Program-made: the position numbers and the translations under genes
DNA from: Persicimonas caeni
GTDB lineage: Bacteria > Myxococcota_A > Bradymonadia > Bradymonadales > Bradymonadaceae
Direction: 5' to 3'
Assembly (NCBI RefSeq): GCF_006517175.1
Contig: NZ_CP041186.1
Coordinates: 4,987,074 to 5,051,073 of the forward strand
DNA: 64,000 bases
The notes under the pieces: generated by a model
Told to the model about the DNA's origin: nothing
Database searches by the model: none
The model's input: the letters and a program-made list of their open reading frames with translations, nothing else
Shown: piece after piece, positions 21,498-28,616 of the stretch
How the letters are laid out: each line of letters starts with the position of its first letter
Position numbering within the stretch: position 1 is the first letter of the stretch

Positions 21498-24125
21498 ATG
21501 AAACTCCGCAAGTATGTTCTCTCCATCGCATTGTTGGCCGCAAGCGTCGCCGCGGGTTGTTCGAGCCAAAAGGCCTCGAGTCCCTCCGAGGACGAATCGG
21601 CGACGCGGCAGCCGGCGACGGAGCAGAAGGCGCCTGAGGGGCTCGACAAGCCCAAGCGCATCATCTTGCTCATTGGAGACGGGATGGGCGTCCCGGCCGT
21701 CAGCGCGGCGAGCTATGCGCACGGTGAGCCCCTGGCGATGTTGGGAATGGAGAAGATGAACTGGATGACGACTCATTCGTACGAGTTCGTCACCACCGAC
21801 TCCGCCGCGTCGGCCAGCGCGATCGCGACGGGAAAGAAGAATCACTACGAGGGCGTCTCGGTCAAACCCGGCACGACCAAACAAAACGAAGAAGACAAAA
21901 AGCAGCACCTCAAGACGGTGCTCGAGAAGGCAGAAGAGTCGGGTTGGCGCACCGGCCTCGTGTCGACCAGCAAGATCGTACACGCCACGCCGGCCGCCTT
22001 CGCAGCGCACCGTGCGAACCGACGCAGTTATGACGCGATCGCCCGCGATATGTACGCGTCGGGGGTCGACGTGCTCCTGGGTGGCGGCCCACGCTACTTT
22101 AGCAAGCGCGCCGACGGCGAGGACCTTCTCGCGGCTTTCGAGAAGAAGGGATATAAGGTCGCGCAAACCAAAGAAGAGATTCAGCAGGCTAGCGAGTTGA
22201 CCACCAAACTCATCGGCCTCCCCCACGATCCCGATTTCCCACCTGCTGGCGATCCCAACCGGGCGATGACGCTGGCGGAAATGACCCAAAGCGCGTTGGC
22301 CGTCCTCGATAGGGATAACGACGACGGATTTTTTCTGATGGTCGAGGGCTCCCAGATTGATTGGAGGGGCCACGATCTCGATGGCGAGGGCGTGGTCAAA
22401 GAGACGCTCGACTTCGACGGCGCCGTAAAGGCCGCGCTCGACTACGCCCGCGAGCGTGACGACACGCTGGTCGTGGTGACGTCAGACCACGAGACTGGCG
22501 GGCTGGCGGTGTTGGACCCTCCGTACACGGATCGCTTCTCGGGCGCGCTCGGTGGTTCAGAAAAGGCAGAGGGGCTGGTCAGCTTTCCGAAGGAGGCCGG
22601 TGAGCAAGAGGTCCCGAAACTCGCAGCAGAGATCGCGCTCGGTCGGGACGGAAAGACGAAGACATTCGGTCCGGCCTACGCTGAGAGCGGGTATATGAAT
22701 ACGGTGTTTGGTCACCTCTCGCTGGCGAGCCGCTCTCAGTGTGCGTCCGCCAGGGAGTTTACGGGCCTTCACACACCGTCACTTGTGCCGGTGTTCACCC
22801 AGGGCAAGGCCGCCGAGTATGTCGCCGAGAGCGAAGACAACGCCGAGCTCGGTCAGCGCCTCTTGAAGTTGGTCGGCAGCGAGTTTGTGGCCGCACCGAA
22901 CCCGGTCGGCCCGGCGAATCCGAAACGTGCGGCTCAGAAGCCGCAGAATATCATCATCATGGTGGGCGACGGGATGGGCATTGGCGCGTTGACCGCGGCC
23001 GAGTATGGCCGAGGCTCGCTGGCGATGCGCAAGCTGCCGGTCGAGGGGCTGGTTTCGACACACGCCGCCGATCGGCTCGTGTCGGATTCGGCCGCTGGCG
23101 CTACGGCGCTGGCTACCGGCAAGCGTACGAACTCGGGCGCCGTGGGGATGGCACGGAATGCTGAAGGCTTGGTGTCGGCCCAGACGCTCATCGAACAAGC
23201 CGAGGCCAAGGGGATGGCCACGGGTTTGGTCACCACCACCACGCTCACCCATGCCACACCGGCGGCATTCTTCGCCCATCAGGCTGATCGTGGCGAGGAA
23301 TCCAAGATCGCCGACCAGTTTGTCGACCTGCCCACGCGAGTCGCGGGCTCAGACGGTGTTGACGTGGCCTTCGGTGCAGGCGCTCAGATCTTTGGCGAGG
23401 CTCGCATTGCGAAGCTCGAGGAACGAGGGGTCGTCGTGGAGTCTGCCTGGAGCGACACGTTGCCAAAGGGGAAGCAAGTCGTTCGCTTTCTGGGCGAAAA
23501 AGGAATGGCCCCGGCGTCCGAGCGCATGAATGACGAGGATGCGTCGACGCCGACGTTGCGTCAGATGACGCGCGCGGCGATCAACCAGTTGTCGCAGTCG
23601 AACAACGGTTTTGTCCTCGTCGTCGAAGGAGGCCAGATCGACTGGGCGCAGCACGGATTGGCACGTGACAAAAGCCTCATCGACGAGGTGGCCGATTTTG
23701 ACGACGCGGTCGCAGAGGCACACGCGTTCGCGCGCCGCGACGGTAATACGCTGCTCGTAGTGACCGCCGACCATGATCACACGACGTCTGTCATCGACGA
23801 CCACTACCAATTCGACAACTGCTCCTGCGCGGCGGCCGTGGAGTGTGGCGGCGATTTCGAGCTCGAGAAGATCGAGGCCGCCGTCGACAAGGTCGGCTTT
23901 AATGAAGGTCTGACCGACACCACGTTGCAGGGCAAATATTCGCCGCTGGAGATCTCGATCCAGTACGCTTGGCTGGTCCAGGAAGGCGCAAAGCGTGCGG
24001 GGCGCCCGGGCCCGCATTCGGCGAACTTCGTGCCGCTCTTTGCCTATGGTCCCCAGTCGGACGCTTTCGGTGGATTCAACGATATCCCCGACATCGGCGC
24101 GTTGCTCCAGCAGGCGCTGCGCTAA
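21498..24125 (+). CDS. Lipoprotein with two tandem alkaline phosphatase domains
   Basis: 875 residues. A signal peptide ends in the lipobox AAGC (Cys21), so the protein is probably membrane-anchored in the periplasm or at the surface. Domain 1 (~53-440): IGDGMG with Asp61, nucleophile motif TTDSAASASA (Ser102), GSQIDWRGHD, SDHETGG and a final HTPSLVPVF. Domain 2 (~487-875): VGDGMG, VSDSAAGATALATG, GGQIDWAQHG, TADHDHTTS and HSANFVPLF. Each half thus has a full metal and nucleophile set. Domain 1 carries the DHETGG form and domain 2 a DHxH form as in E. coli PhoA, so they are not a recent duplicate. Standard alkaline phosphatases are one such domain of ~450-500 residues. Converges on trpCF with 2 bp between stops. 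Confidence 0.92.
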   Translation: MKLRKYVLSIALLAASVAAGCSSQKASSPSEDESATRQPATEQKAPEGLDKPKRIILLIGDGMGVPAVSAASYAHGEPLAMLGMEKMNWMTTHSYEFVTTDSAASASAIATGKKNHYEGVSVKPGTTKQNEEDKKQHLKTVLEKAEESGWRTGLVSTSKIVHATPAAFAAHRANRRSYDAIARDMYASGVDVLLGGGPRYFSKRADGEDLLAAFEKKGYKVAQTKEEIQQASELTTKLIGLPHDPDFPPAGDPNRAMTLAEMTQSALAVLDRDNDDGFFLMVEGSQIDWRGHDLDGEGVVKETLDFDGAVKAALDYARERDDTLVVVTSDHETGGLAVLDPPYTDRFSGALGGSEKAEGLVSFPKEAGEQEVPKLAAEIALGRDGKTKTFGPAYAESGYMNTVFGHLSLASRSQCASAREFTGLHTPSLVPVFTQGKAAEYVAESEDNAELGQRLLKLVGSEFVAAPNPVGPANPKRAAQKPQNIIIMVGDGMGIGALTAAEYGRGSLAMRKLPVEGLVSTHAADRLVSDSAAGATALATGKRTNSGAVGMARNAEGLVSAQTLIEQAEAKGMATGLVTTTTLTHATPAAFFAHQADRGEESKIADQFVDLPTRVAGSDGVDVAFGAGAQIFGEARIAKLEERGVVVESAWSDTLPKGKQVVRFLGEKGMAPASERMNDEDASTPTLRQMTRAAINQLSQSNNGFVLVVEGGQIDWAQHGLARDKSLIDEVADFDDAVAEAHAFARRDGNTLLVVTADHDHTTSVIDDHYQFDNCSCAAAVECGGDFELEKIEAAVDKVGFNEGLTDTTLQGKYSPLEISIQYAWLVQEGAKRAGRPGPHSANFVPLFAYGPQSDAFGGFNDIPDIGALLQQALR

Positions 24126-24127
24126 TC

Positions 24128-25495
24128 CTAACGCCGCAGGGCGGCGAAGAACTGGTCGAGGAGGGCGCGGCTCTTGGTGCCGGTCGAGCTCTCGACGCCC
24201 AGGTTGACGTCGAGCGCCCACGTTCCGAAGTCGTCGGCCCGCGCAGCGTTGTCGGGAGTGAGCCCGCCTCCCAAGAGGATCCGGTCGCGGCTGCGGGCGT
24301 CGAGTTCTCCGAGAAGCGACCAGTCGAAGATGGCGCTTTTGCCTGCGCGGCCGCGCTCGAAGTTGTCGAGCAGGATGCGGTCGGCGTGGATGGACGACAG
24401 GTTGGGCAACTTGCCATCGACGTGAACCGCCTTCCAGATTTCGGTCTTGCGGGGGATGCGGCGTCGAAGCTCGAGGATGTAGTCGTTGCTCTCACGGCCG
24501 TGAAGTTGCACCGCGCTCATGCTCAGCCGCTCGGCACAGCAGGCGATTTCGTCCATCGAGTCGTCGACAAAGACACCGACGAACTCCAGGGGCGCCGCCG
24601 CACAGATGACCCGCGCGGCGTCGTAGTTGACGTGACGCGCCGAGCCCGGCGCGAAGATAAGCCCGCCGTGAGTGGCGCCCGCCTGCCATGCGGCTCGCGC
24701 GTCGGCAGGATGCGCCAAGCCACAGACCTTGACCCGGCCAAAGATAAGCTCTCGAAGTGCTCGCGGGACGTCGCCCGAATCGACCAGCGACCCTCCGGTG
24801 AGCACCGCGTCGAAGTGGGCGCGCAGTGCGACGATCTGGCGGTGGTCGTCGAAACCGCCCAGTGAAATGACGGTGCAGTCGTCGGGCACCTTCGGGGCGA
24901 GCTCGCGGGTATGCCCCAGATCGAAACTCATGTCGTCGAAGTTGCGGTTATCGATGCCGACCAGCGAGATGCCGGCGTCGAGCACCTGGTCGAGATCGTC
25001 GCTATTTCGCACCACCCCGACCACGTCGAGGTTGACTGAGCGCGCCGCGGAGACGCACTCGTCGAAGACCGCCGGGGTGACCACGGCGGGCATCAGCGTG
25101 ATGGCATCGGCCCCGAACTCACGCGCCTCGTGGACCTGATAAGGCTCGACGACGACGTCGTCGCAGACCACCGGAAGGTCGACCACGTCACGGATCGCGC
25201 GGACTTTTTGACGATTCTGCTCGAAGCGTCCCTCGCGAAAGCTGATCGCGACGGCCTGGGCGAAGGGCGCGAAGGTGCGTGCAAGCGCGGCGGGGTCGAT
25301 CTCGCCGGTGGACTGCTCGCCGAAGGCCAATGCCTGTTCGCATTCGAGAATGTAGCCGAGCCGATCGCCGGCCAGCGCGTCTGCGAGGCTGCGGTTCGAC
25401 GGTCGTTGTTGACGGGCGTGTGCGGAGACATCTCGGTCTTGCGCGCGTTGCTCGAGTGCGGTGCGCGTCTGATTGACCAGGTCTTCGAGTGCCAT
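24128..25495 (-). CDS. trpCF: TrpC-TrpF fusion with a degenerate TrpC (IGPS) domain
   Basis: 455 residues, colinear with E. coli TrpC(F) throughout. The C-terminal phosphoribosylanthranilate isomerase half looks active: KVCGL (Cys258), QLHG, LLDN and the closing GVESS phosphate loop. The N-terminal indole-glycerol-phosphate synthase half keeps the fold pattern (LECxxA, DPYQ-like EPYQ, GIDNR, TRELAPK), but key residues differ: Lys of ECK is Glu53, Lys of CKDF is Asp112, Glu of TEV is Val161, Asn of GINNR is Asp182, and the SESG phosphate loop reads SLGG. IGPS activity is therefore unlikely. No other trp gene is nearby. A second, active trpC elsewhere would explain it; this cannot be seen here. 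Confidence 0.88.
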   Translation of the reverse strand: MALEDLVNQTRTALEQRAQDRDVSAHARQQRPSNRSLADALAGDRLGYILECEQALAFGEQSTGEIDPAALARTFAPFAQAVAISFREGRFEQNRQKVRAIRDVVDLPVVCDDVVVEPYQVHEAREFGADAITLMPAVVTPAVFDECVSAARSVNLDVVGVVRNSDDLDQVLDAGISLVGIDNRNFDDMSFDLGHTRELAPKVPDDCTVISLGGFDDHRQIVALRAHFDAVLTGGSLVDSGDVPRALRELIFGRVKVCGLAHPADARAAWQAGATHGGLIFAPGSARHVNYDAARVICAAAPLEFVGVFVDDSMDEIACCAERLSMSAVQLHGRESNDYILELRRRIPRKTEIWKAVHVDGKLPNLSSIHADRILLDNFERGRAGKSAIFDWSLLGELDARSRDRILLGGGLTPDNAARADDFGTWALDVNLGVESSTGTKSRALLDQFFAALRR

Positions 25496-25711: not shown

Positions 25712-26515
25712 ATGGCCAGAAGAACGACGACGCGTGACCTGCACGAGCTGTACGAGGCCGGCATCCCCATCACAATGGTGACCTGCTACGACTACACGTT
25801 TGCGCGTCTGGTAGAGAAAGCCGAGATCGACACGATTCTCATCGGTGACAGCCTCGGCAACGTGATGCAGGGCCAGGATACGACCCTGCCGGTGACCGTC
25901 GAGGATATCATCTACCACTGTCGGGCGGTCGTGCGCGGGAACCACAGCGCGCTCATCGTCGCCGACATGCCCTTTATGAGCTACCAGGCGAGCTTCGAGG
26001 AGGGGATGCGCAACGCTGGGCGTCTGCTCAAGGAAGGGGGCGCGCAAGCCGTCAAGGTCGAAGGAGGGCGGGCCGTCGCGCCGCTGGTCGAGCAGATGAG
26101 CGCCCACGGGATTCCGGTGGTCGGCCATCTGGGCTTGACCCCTCAGTCGGTGCACAAGCTCGGCGGCTACCGAGTGCAAGGCCGAGGCGAGGCCGCCGGC
26201 CAAGAGCTGCTGGCGGACGCCAAGGCACTCGAAGAGGCCGGCGCGTTCATGTTGGTGCTCGAGATGGTGCCCACCGAGCTGGCCCAAAAGGTCACCGAGA
26301 GCCTGTCGATTCCGACCATCGGCATCGGGGCGGGCAACGTGACGAGCGGCCAGGTGCTCGTGCTTCAGGATCTGCTCGGGATGAACCAGAGCTTTACCCC
26401 CAAGTTTTTGAAGCGCTTTGCCAACCTCGAAGAGACGGTGACCGAGGCCCTCGGCGCTTACCGCGATGAGGTTCGCGAGCGCAGCTACCCCGGCGACGAG
26501 CATTCCTTCGACTAA
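25712..26515 (+). CDS. panB: 3-methyl-2-oxobutanoate hydroxymethyltransferase
   Basis: 267 residues; adds a hydroxymethyl group from methylene-THF to ketoisovalerate, the first committed step to pantothenate. MVTCYDYTFARL, IGDSLGNVMQGQDTTLPVT with the metal-binding Asp, VKVEGG, GHLGLTPQSVHKLGGYRVQG and IPTIGIGAGN are all typical. Good length. GGAG lies upstream of ATG 25712. panC is 2.2 kb downstream on the same strand, interrupted by a convergent kinase gene whose stop overlaps the panB stop. Confidence 0.97.
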   Translation: MARRTTTRDLHELYEAGIPITMVTCYDYTFARLVEKAEIDTILIGDSLGNVMQGQDTTLPVTVEDIIYHCRAVVRGNHSALIVADMPFMSYQASFEEGMRNAGRLLKEGGAQAVKVEGGRAVAPLVEQMSAHGIPVVGHLGLTPQSVHKLGGYRVQGRGEAAGQELLADAKALEEAGAFMLVLEMVPTELAQKVTESLSIPTIGIGAGNVTSGQVLVLQDLLGMNQSFTPKFLKRFANLEETVTEALGAYRDEVRERSYPGDEHSFD

Positions 26516-28494
26516 TCGAGGGCGTCGAGCACCCGCTGGAGCGCCTTCAAGTCGACCGGCTTGGTCAGGTGCTCGTCAAATCCGGCTTCGGCCGACCGCC
26601 GACGGTCTTCCGGTTGTCCGTAGCCGGTCAACGCGATCAGTTCGAGTCCATCGAGTGAGGCGTCTTTCTGGACCGACCGCGCCAATTCGTACCCGCTGGC
26701 GCCGGGCAGGCCCAGATCGCAAAAGACCACGTCGAAGTCTTGGCTCGAGAGCTCCTCGAGTGCCTCCGAGACCCGATGGGCCACGGTCACTCGATGGCCC
26801 TTGAGTTCGAGCAAGTCTTGTAGCATCTGCGCTGCATCGGGGTTGTCTTCGACCACCAGAATGCAGCGTGACCCTGCTTCCTGGGGACGAGCCGCCGAGT
26901 CCTCGACGGCGGGCGCCTCGACCAGGGGCAGGCGGACCACGAACTCCGCGCCGCTCCCCCGGCCGGGGCTGTACGCCGAGATTGTTCCCCCATGAAGCTC
27001 GGCCAGATTCTTGGCGAGCGCCAGCCCCAGCCCCAGGCCCCCTGCAGACCGCGCGAAGTCTTGCGCTTCTTGGCGAAATGCCTCGAAAATCGACGGCAGC
27101 AACTCGCTGCGTATGCCGACCCCAGTGTCGGTGACACGTACCACGGCTTCGTCGTCGTCTTCGAACACTTCGACCAAGATGCGACCGGGCGGTTCGGTAA
27201 ACTTGATGGCGTTGCTCATAAGATTGCCGAAGATCTGGGTGAGGCGCACCGGGTCGCCGGTGACCCAAACGGGGGTGTTCGAGATGGACGCTCCAATCTG
27301 CAGGTCGCGAGCCTCGACTTGGCTCGACTGGTCGTTCAGGAGTTCCTGCAACAGCTCGCGTAGATCGAGGGTCTCTTGACTCAGCGAGATCTTACCACGC
27401 GCGATACGCGACACTTCCAGCAGCCCATCGATGATGCCGGCCATATGATCAGATTGGCGCTCGAGCACGCGGGCAGCATTGACCAGACGCGGGTCATCGT
27501 CGTGAGCCGCCATCTTGACCACGTCGGTCGCGCTCTGCACGGCCGCAAGCGGGTTTCGCAGCTCGTGGCCGAGCATGGCCAGGTACTCGTCTTTGCGCCG
27601 GTCGGCTTCATGGAGGCGGTCTTTGCTCTCGCGCAGCGCTTCTTCCATGCGAACCCGTTCGGTCACGTCGCGGAAGATATGCGCGGCGCCGAGTAACCGG
27701 TCTTCCTCGTCGTAGATCGGGTTGAAGCGCAACTCGTAGACGCGCATCTCGTCTTCGGATGGTCCGAACTCCATGGTGGTCGTGAATGACTCCCCATCGA
27801 GCGCGCGGCTCCACAGCTTCTTGGCTTTGCGCTGTTCCTCGGGCCATGGCGCCATCGCCTCGATCATGCTGGTGCCCACCTTAATCTGCTGGCCCCACAG
27901 CTTTTCGAACTCTCGAGAATAGGCCTCGTTGAAATAGAGGTAGCGAAAGTCACGGTCTTCGGCGGCGATCATGTCTTCGGTGCCCCGGGTGATGCCCTCG
28001 ATGAGGCTATGGGCGCGGCGAAGCTTGTCTGCGGCGCGTTGGCGTGCAGTGGTGTCTTTGAGAATGCCCAGTACACCGGCGACCTCACCGTCATCATTGC
28101 GAAGAGGCGTGCACGAGACGCTCTGATATGCATTGTTTGGCTGACCGCGCGCCTGGAGCACCACGTGGTTGTCCTCCATCCGGCTCGGTTCGCCGGCCAG
28201 GCCGCGCTCGACCACCGAGACCAGCTCGGGGAACAGCCTCGGGCCCACTTCCTCGAATGAGCCCCCGAACGCCTCAGGGTGGTCGGGCCCGACGATGTCG
28301 GCGAAGGCGTTGTTGTAAAGCCACGTGCGCGCGGCTCCCCAGACAACGAACATTGACTGGCTCGACGCAAGCATCGTGTCGACGACCGTGCGAAGCGTCG
28401 GGGGCCAGGCTTCGGGGGGGCCGAGGTCGGCAAGGGTTCCGTCATGGGCGCGGATATGTCCAGCGATGTCACCGCCGTGCTCGAAAGCACTCAT
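26512..28494 (-). CDS. Hybrid sensor histidine kinase (PAS-PAS-HisKA-HATPase-REC)
   Basis: 660 residues from ATG 28494; a longer reading from 28545 is possible. Two PAS domains (about 40-150 and 160-280) without membrane segments suggest cytoplasmic sensing. The first carries the LGPPEAWPPTLRT..WG..YNNAF pattern common in such kinases. H-box EYLAMLGHELRNPL with His310; then NLMSNAIKFT (N-box), DTGVGI and GGLGLGLALAK (G-boxes). A C-terminal receiver has VVEDN, the phospho-acceptor Asp in FCDLGLPG, TGYG and LTKPVD. No separate response regulator is next to it. The stop TAG overlaps the panB stop by convergent transcription. Confidence 0.93.
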   Translation of the reverse strand: MSAFEHGGDIAGHIRAHDGTLADLGPPEAWPPTLRTVVDTMLASSQSMFVVWGAARTWLYNNAFADIVGPDHPEAFGGSFEEVGPRLFPELVSVVERGLAGEPSRMEDNHVVLQARGQPNNAYQSVSCTPLRNDDGEVAGVLGILKDTTARQRAADKLRRAHSLIEGITRGTEDMIAAEDRDFRYLYFNEAYSREFEKLWGQQIKVGTSMIEAMAPWPEEQRKAKKLWSRALDGESFTTTMEFGPSEDEMRVYELRFNPIYDEEDRLLGAAHIFRDVTERVRMEEALRESKDRLHEADRRKDEYLAMLGHELRNPLAAVQSATDVVKMAAHDDDPRLVNAARVLERQSDHMAGIIDGLLEVSRIARGKISLSQETLDLRELLQELLNDQSSQVEARDLQIGASISNTPVWVTGDPVRLTQIFGNLMSNAIKFTEPPGRILVEVFEDDDEAVVRVTDTGVGIRSELLPSIFEAFRQEAQDFARSAGGLGLGLALAKNLAELHGGTISAYSPGRGSGAEFVVRLPLVEAPAVEDSAARPQEAGSRCILVVEDNPDAAQMLQDLLELKGHRVTVAHRVSEALEELSSQDFDVVFCDLGLPGASGYELARSVQKDASLDGLELIALTGYGQPEDRRRSAEAGFDEHLTKPVDLKALQRVLDALD

Positions 28495-28616
28495 TCGAAG
28501 TCCCGTGGATTGTCGGATCCGGTACCAAAAGCGACTGCGCCGCAAATATGGGCGCGATCACACGGTTAACAAGCTGCGACCGTGCGTTTCAACAGCGCAG
28601 CAAAGCGCTTGTGTGC

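Follow-up and report, generated by a model that had tools for sequence, protein, structure and literature searches.

Persicimonas caeni is a predatory marine bacterium. The window analysed here, a stretch of 64,000 nucleotides of its genome, carries on the reverse strand an intact open reading frame for a protein in which TrpC and TrpF are fused, and which we refer to as pTrpCF. The gene is flanked on the left by a large alkaline phosphatase gene, whose stop codon lies 2 bp from that of pTrpCF, and on the right by a divergently oriented panB, at a distance of 216 bp.

21498..24125, (+): left neighbour, large alkaline phosphatase (phoA-like), PF00245
24128..25495, (-): pTrpCF, TrpC-TrpF fusion ORF, 455 aa, ATG start, intact; from the ORF call and profile matches
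24740..25495, (-): TrpC (IGPS) half, residues 1-252; fold kept, judging by sequence, and active-site face cleared; from PF00218, conserved columns, branch lengths and simulation
24128..24739, (-): TrpF (PRAI) half, residues 253-455; with its catalytic residues and an ordinary rate; from PF00697, conserved columns and end branches
25712..26515, (+): right neighbour, panB, PF02548

The phoA-like protein (21498-24125) comprises 875 aa with three PF00245 stretches, apparently two phosphatase domains in tandem. In another genome of the same family (G004), the gene order adk-rpsM-rpsK-rpoA-rplQ-phoA-panB-panC-tetR-etfB-etfA is that of the window minus pTrpCF, with 50 bp between the end of the phoA match and the start of the panB match (L051). 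This order suggests that pTrpCF was either added between phoA and panB in the lineage of the window or lost in others. The interval between pTrpCF and panB contains a single promoter-like match, located on the panB strand, and no Rfam matches were found in the window. Further to the right, a gene for a PAS histidine kinase with a receiver domain (26512-28545) lies on the opposite strand and separates panB from panC. Each of the six relatives compared has its panB and panC matches no more than about 60 bp apart, so the kinase gene is a second insertion near pTrpCF. CdRP reportedly inhibits PanC in Salmonella. A pantothenate link of pTrpCF, which adjoins panB, was considered and dropped: it found no support in the literature searched, and panB and panC are adjacent in relatives devoid of pTrpCF.

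The TrpC half matches the IGPS profile PF00218 over its whole length (148 bits, profile positions 1-254 of 254), which places it within the IGPS fold, and the TrpF half matches the PRAI profile PF00697 almost completely (144 bits, positions 1-192 of 193). Against NF006945, the NCBIfam equivalog for bifunctional TrpC/TrpF, the protein scores 393.5 bits over positions 10-459 of 461, above the curated cut-off of 380 bits and thus within the TrpCF fusions. Since this cut-off is passed, automatic annotation would label pTrpCF as bifunctional, misleadingly. An end-to-end alignment with E. coli TrpC(F) had been described in the first-pass annotation of this DNA, and it is borne out over residues 12-454 when pTrpCF is aligned with the E. 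coli protein (1pii).

Using a profile search of the genome, we found two matches to IGPS and two to PRAI, no more, which pair up as two TrpCF fusions. The separate trpC that the first-pass annotation had proposed to look for is therefore present elsewhere: the second fusion, with 577.5 bits against NF006945 and 44% identity to pTrpCF, is a canonical TrpCF located in a complete trp operon consisting of DAHP synthase, trpE, trpG, trpD, trpCF, trpB and trpA.

G000:C1, about 7247183-7254925 (L007:4184-11926): complete trp operon with DAHP synthase, from profile matches

With a canonical TrpCF in a complete operon, pTrpCF is redundant for the completeness of the pathway. The operon is present in the window genome, yet TrpCF was found in none of the other 20 genomes of the family. 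Complete tryptophan synthesis has been described as lacking in all Bradymonadales genomes studied, strain YN101 included (PMC7460792).

In the alignment, the codons of the TrpC half that stand at active-site positions of IGPS read as follows.

25337..25339, (-): Glu53, in place of a catalytic Lys (SsIGPS Lys53, MtIGPS Lys59)
25160..25162, (-): Asp112, in place of a catalytic Lys (SsIGPS Lys110, MtIGPS Lys119)
25013..25015, (-): Val161, in place of the catalytic Glu (SsIGPS Glu159, MtIGPS Glu168)
24950..24952, (-): Asp182, in place of the active-site Asn (SsIGPS Asn180)
24857..24862, (-): Leu212-Gly213, in place of Glu-Ser of SESG (SsIGPS Glu210-Ser211); reads SLGG

These are the replacements that had been read at first pass, with both Lys turned acidic, Glu changed to Val, Asn to Asp and SESG to SLGG, and the alignment confirmed every one of them. 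In the M. tuberculosis enzyme (MtIGPS), Ala mutants of Glu57, Lys59, Lys119, Glu168 and Glu219 were each without detectable activity (PMC10591298). Four of these five essential positions are replaced in pTrpCF, and Glu51, the equivalent of Glu57, is the sole one retained. Since four of the five residues whose mutation to Ala abolishes activity are gone, the IGPS activity of pTrpCF has presumably been lost. The β1-α1 loop SPSxGxIR is also mostly lost (S56L, P57A, S58F, G60E, R63T), as is SVLTD at the end of the second strand (S83A, L85S, T86F, D87R); within the residue set of an active IGPS (two Lys, a Glu pair, Asn, SESG), E51 alone is kept. The same IGPS residues are retained in every one of ten further TrpC/TrpF loci, fused or paired, that were aligned from the phylum. 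The residue loss in the TrpC half of pTrpCF is far beyond chance.

A shift of the catalytic residues to nearby positions, named in the first-pass annotation as an observation that would overturn its reading, could leave pTrpCF a working IGPS, and the retained Glu51 would agree with this. However, the only Lys residues of the TrpC half are K97 and K202, neither of them near the barrel mouth, and the alignment with E. coli TrpCF contains no indel columns over residues 14-252. These two observations argue that the catalysts have not moved, and we regard a still active IGPS with relocated catalysts as hardly credible.

The TrpF half presents a different picture, as listed below.

24722..24724, (-): Cys258, catalytic Cys, retained; Cys in 37/37 other PRAI
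24365..24367, (-): Asp377, catalytic Asp, retained; Asp in 37/37 other PRAI
24335..24337, (-): Ser387, G387S, giving a loop AGKS in place of GG[TS]G; Gly in 37/37 other PRAI
24200..24202, (-): Leu432, S432L, before GVE; Ser, Gly or Thr in 37/37 other PRAI

Cys258 and the Asp of LLD (Asp377) had been noted as kept, and the alignment agrees; other invariant PRAI residues, namely K256, R287, H332, G410, G411, N416, D429 and E435, are kept as well. PRAI activity has probably been retained. The conserved loops of PRAI (GG[TS]G, and Ser, Gly or Thr before GVE) are altered at S387 and L432, and these two substitutions mean that the activity could be weak or lost. They also bear on the possibility that the whole of pTrpCF is a pseudoenzyme, with both halves dead or nearly so, which would have a regulatory role through binding PRA or CdRP, or through binding a partner, for instance the canonical TrpCF. 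Besides the two substitutions at positions otherwise occupied by Gly or by Ser, Gly or Thr, this possibility draws on the second full PRAI elsewhere in the genome and on the precedent of the Leucomyxa TrpF-TrpC fusion, in which both halves are mutated (PMC11528492). It is countered by the PRAI catalytic residues named above, all of which are kept, and by the ordinary end branch of the TrpF half (see below), and we consider it unlikely, if worth keeping in mind.

To describe how constraint is distributed between the halves, we compared pTrpCF with 38 other TrpC and 37 other TrpF sequences at columns with a conservation of 90% or more. Of 59 such columns in TrpC, pTrpCF retains 28 (0.47) and the canonical copy 58. 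The other rows have a median of 0.98; the lowest value among complete rows is 0.84, and one truncated row (L063) has 0.74. The TrpF half keeps 22 of 24 (0.92), with a median of 0.96 and a lowest value of 0.84 among the others. In mixture-model trees, the end branch of pTrpCF measures 4.07 when the tree is built from TrpC, where the median is 0.42, and 0.59 when it is built from TrpF, where the median is 0.47.

Branch lengths were also obtained on a fixed topology of ten fusion proteins, with TrpC split into 32 active-face and 220 remaining columns. The active face combines the ligand and catalytic positions of SsIGPS with the β1-α1 loop and the strand ends; because its columns were partly picked with the losses already known, the contrast between face and rest is descriptive and not blind. 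The TrpF branch is 0.69 for pTrpCF, 0.50 for the canonical copy and 0.79 for E. coli. For the rest of TrpC, the corresponding values are 1.18, which is moderately fast, 0.28 and 0.78, while the active-face branch of pTrpCF reaches 10.0, a saturated value, with all others at 0.27 at most. Conserved columns are kept at 5 of 29 positions on the face versus 42 of 83 in the rest of the half (Fisher p = 0.002, for a face that was not chosen blind).

The kind of replacement differs in the same way. Off the face, the mean BLOSUM62 score of the replacements is -0.02, versus -0.86 ± 0.23 in a neutral simulation (P = 0.0025), and hydrophobic residues are replaced by hydrophobic ones at a frequency of 0.85, versus 0.40 ± 0.09 under neutrality (0 of 400 simulations). 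On the face, the replacements match the simulation, both in BLOSUM62 score (-0.88 vs -1.02) and in hydrophobic residues kept (0.43 vs 0.44). AlphaFold2 run on the single pTrpCF sequence gave a pLDDT of 37 and a pTM of 0.27.

The first-pass annotation had proposed a preserved fold with a cleared active site and not random decay. The conservative replacements off the face, the neutral-like face and the normal rate of the TrpF half support this, as far as sequence comparison reaches, and the TrpC half, with its catalytic residues lost and its fold apparently under constraint, would qualify as a pseudoenzyme domain. One argument offered for that proposal, the intact frame, stands as an observation but is weak on its own, because a stop codon or frameshift in the upstream TrpC half would abolish the downstream TrpF half as well, and that half is under selection. 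The real evidence for a fold that appears to be kept lies in the conservative core and the absence of indels.

The same data bear on whether pTrpCF is a duplicate heading towards a pseudogene with its frame still unbroken. One gene copy is redundant and no orthologue is known, which would fit; such a fate is already disfavoured by a 455-codon frame that has stayed intact, almost free of indels, at its present distance from the canonical copy, by the fold-conserving replacements and ordinary TrpF-half rate, and by codon usage and GC3, which in both halves resemble those of the host and neighbouring genes. We judge it very unlikely.

As to what the cleared barrel now does, the first-pass annotation had allowed for a pseudoenzyme scaffold or a changed reaction. 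The neutral-like replacements on the face favour a pseudoenzyme domain over a changed reaction, and a scaffold role for the dead IGPS barrel is what we infer. A repurposed barrel, with a new reaction or ligand, would make use of the fact that the two Lys positions and the Asn position are now acidic (Glu53, Asp112, Asp182). Together with Glu51, which is retained, these residues would line the mouth of the pocket with carboxylates, where a cation or a basic ligand could be bound. The TrpC half as a whole is strongly acidic, with a net charge (K+R-D-E) of -17 against 0 to -10 in the other TrpC sequences compared. However, the face replacements look unconstrained in the neutral simulation, the other pocket carboxylates (equivalents of Glu159 and Glu210) are gone, and a single sequence cannot separate positive selection from drift, which together make repurposing improbable. 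Less probable again is its more specific form, in which the barrel would be a new binding or catalytic site, its acidic pocket receiving a cation or new ligand and perhaps controlling the attached PRAI.

No orthologue of the degenerate form was recovered in a contig scan of 84,980 species, which returned only an unrelated alphaproteobacterial TrpF of 25% identity; in 379 genomes of the phylum, ten further loci have TrpC and TrpF fused or paired, and all ten are non-degenerate. In the mixture tree of the TrpF half, pTrpCF groups with G050 and G336 and apart from the canonical copy (98/91); support was poor in the LG+G4 trees built from the ten fusion proteins. A HisA/PriA-type replacement was dropped as an explanation, since two strong matches to the HisA/HisF family lie next to each other in the genome.

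Each of the six genomes of f3, a sister family in the same class, encodes a standalone IGPS-like protein, at loci L113 (G143:C25), L114 (G050:C2) and L117 (G071:C52) and also L123-L125. An alignment of three members (L113, L114, L117) shows that neither catalytic Lys is present in them, and the family has the conserved motifs LPLPP.(L/M).DAL.VPR and TMARAHGA. One of the sampled genomes, G071, has no IGPS match besides the standalone protein. The profile of this family scores the canonical TrpCF at 69.8 bits versus 47.7 bits for pTrpCF, so it seems to be no special relative of the latter. These proteins are a candidate family-wide pseudo-IGPS, perhaps more interesting than pTrpCF itself. Two further loci, L115 (G052:C45) and L116 (G082:C215), each consist of one ORF (808 and 851 codons, respectively) with the appearance of a TrpD-TrpC-TrpF triple fusion, whose IGPS part is divergent but keeps the Lys in AEVK and AKDF.

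The explanation that we favour, with a probability of about 0.62, is that pTrpCF is a PRAI that retains a catalytically dead IGPS barrel as a structural partner, beside the canonical TrpCF. As a second TrpCF, pTrpCF is divergent and shares the genome with a canonical one. In this model, the need for indole-glycerol phosphate from pTrpCF would thus have been lifted, and the IGPS barrel would have lost its catalytic residues and its phosphate and lid loop; redundancy, we infer, permitted this loss. The TIM-barrel fold of the TrpC half would have been kept, probably as the covalent N-terminal partner of the PRAI domain, which is under selection. Cys258 and Asp377 would form the catalytic pair with which the protein turns PRA into CdRP, and the CdRP would be handed to the canonical TrpCF. 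Three points weigh against this explanation. The canonical TrpCF already supplies PRAI, which leaves the need for a second one unexplained; the PRAI half is altered too, at S387 and L432; and the constraint on the pTrpCF form is read from one sequence, without a close orthologue.

If this explanation is right, pTrpCF offers a naturally occurring test case in a textbook fused enzyme, in which one of two TIM barrels is without catalysis while its partner is constrained, and the working TrpCF in the same cell serves as an internal control. It would allow one to ask whether the PRAI barrel needs the IGPS barrel for support, and would illustrate how a curated equivalog model can assign bifunctionality to a protein in which one half is catalytically dead.

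Among known systems, pTrpCF resembles the enterobacterial TrpCF (E. coli 1pii; NF006945, PRK09427) in domain order, length, end-to-end alignment, PRAI residues and passage of the curated cut-off. Unlike that enzyme, its IGPS half is without the active-site Lys, Lys, Glu, Asn and Glu-Ser, and its gene lies outside the trp operon, with a canonical copy elsewhere in the genome. PriA of Actinomycetota is similar in that TrpF-type activities have been shifted and lost after gene gain and loss; it differs from pTrpCF in being a single dual-substrate enzyme without a dead fused domain (PMC13055916). The core-eudicot TSB-like pseudoenzyme shares with pTrpCF the retention of a noncatalytic paralogue of a tryptophan-pathway enzyme beside the active one; it differs in deriving from TrpB and in its reported role as an allosteric activator of TrpA (PMC12727527). 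The limited literature searched contained no bacterial case in which one half is degenerate and an intact copy is present alongside. A close published precedent is the TrpF-TrpC fusion of the alga Leucomyxa plasmidifera, termed a pseudoenzyme by its authors, in which the same two enzymes are fused and the protein has been retained despite the loss of catalytic residues (PMC11528492). There, TrpF precedes TrpC, catalytic residues have changed in both domains (Cys to Ser, Lys to Ala) and the alga has no other part of the pathway (PMC11528492), whereas in pTrpCF only the TrpC half has been cleared and the full pathway is present in the genome.
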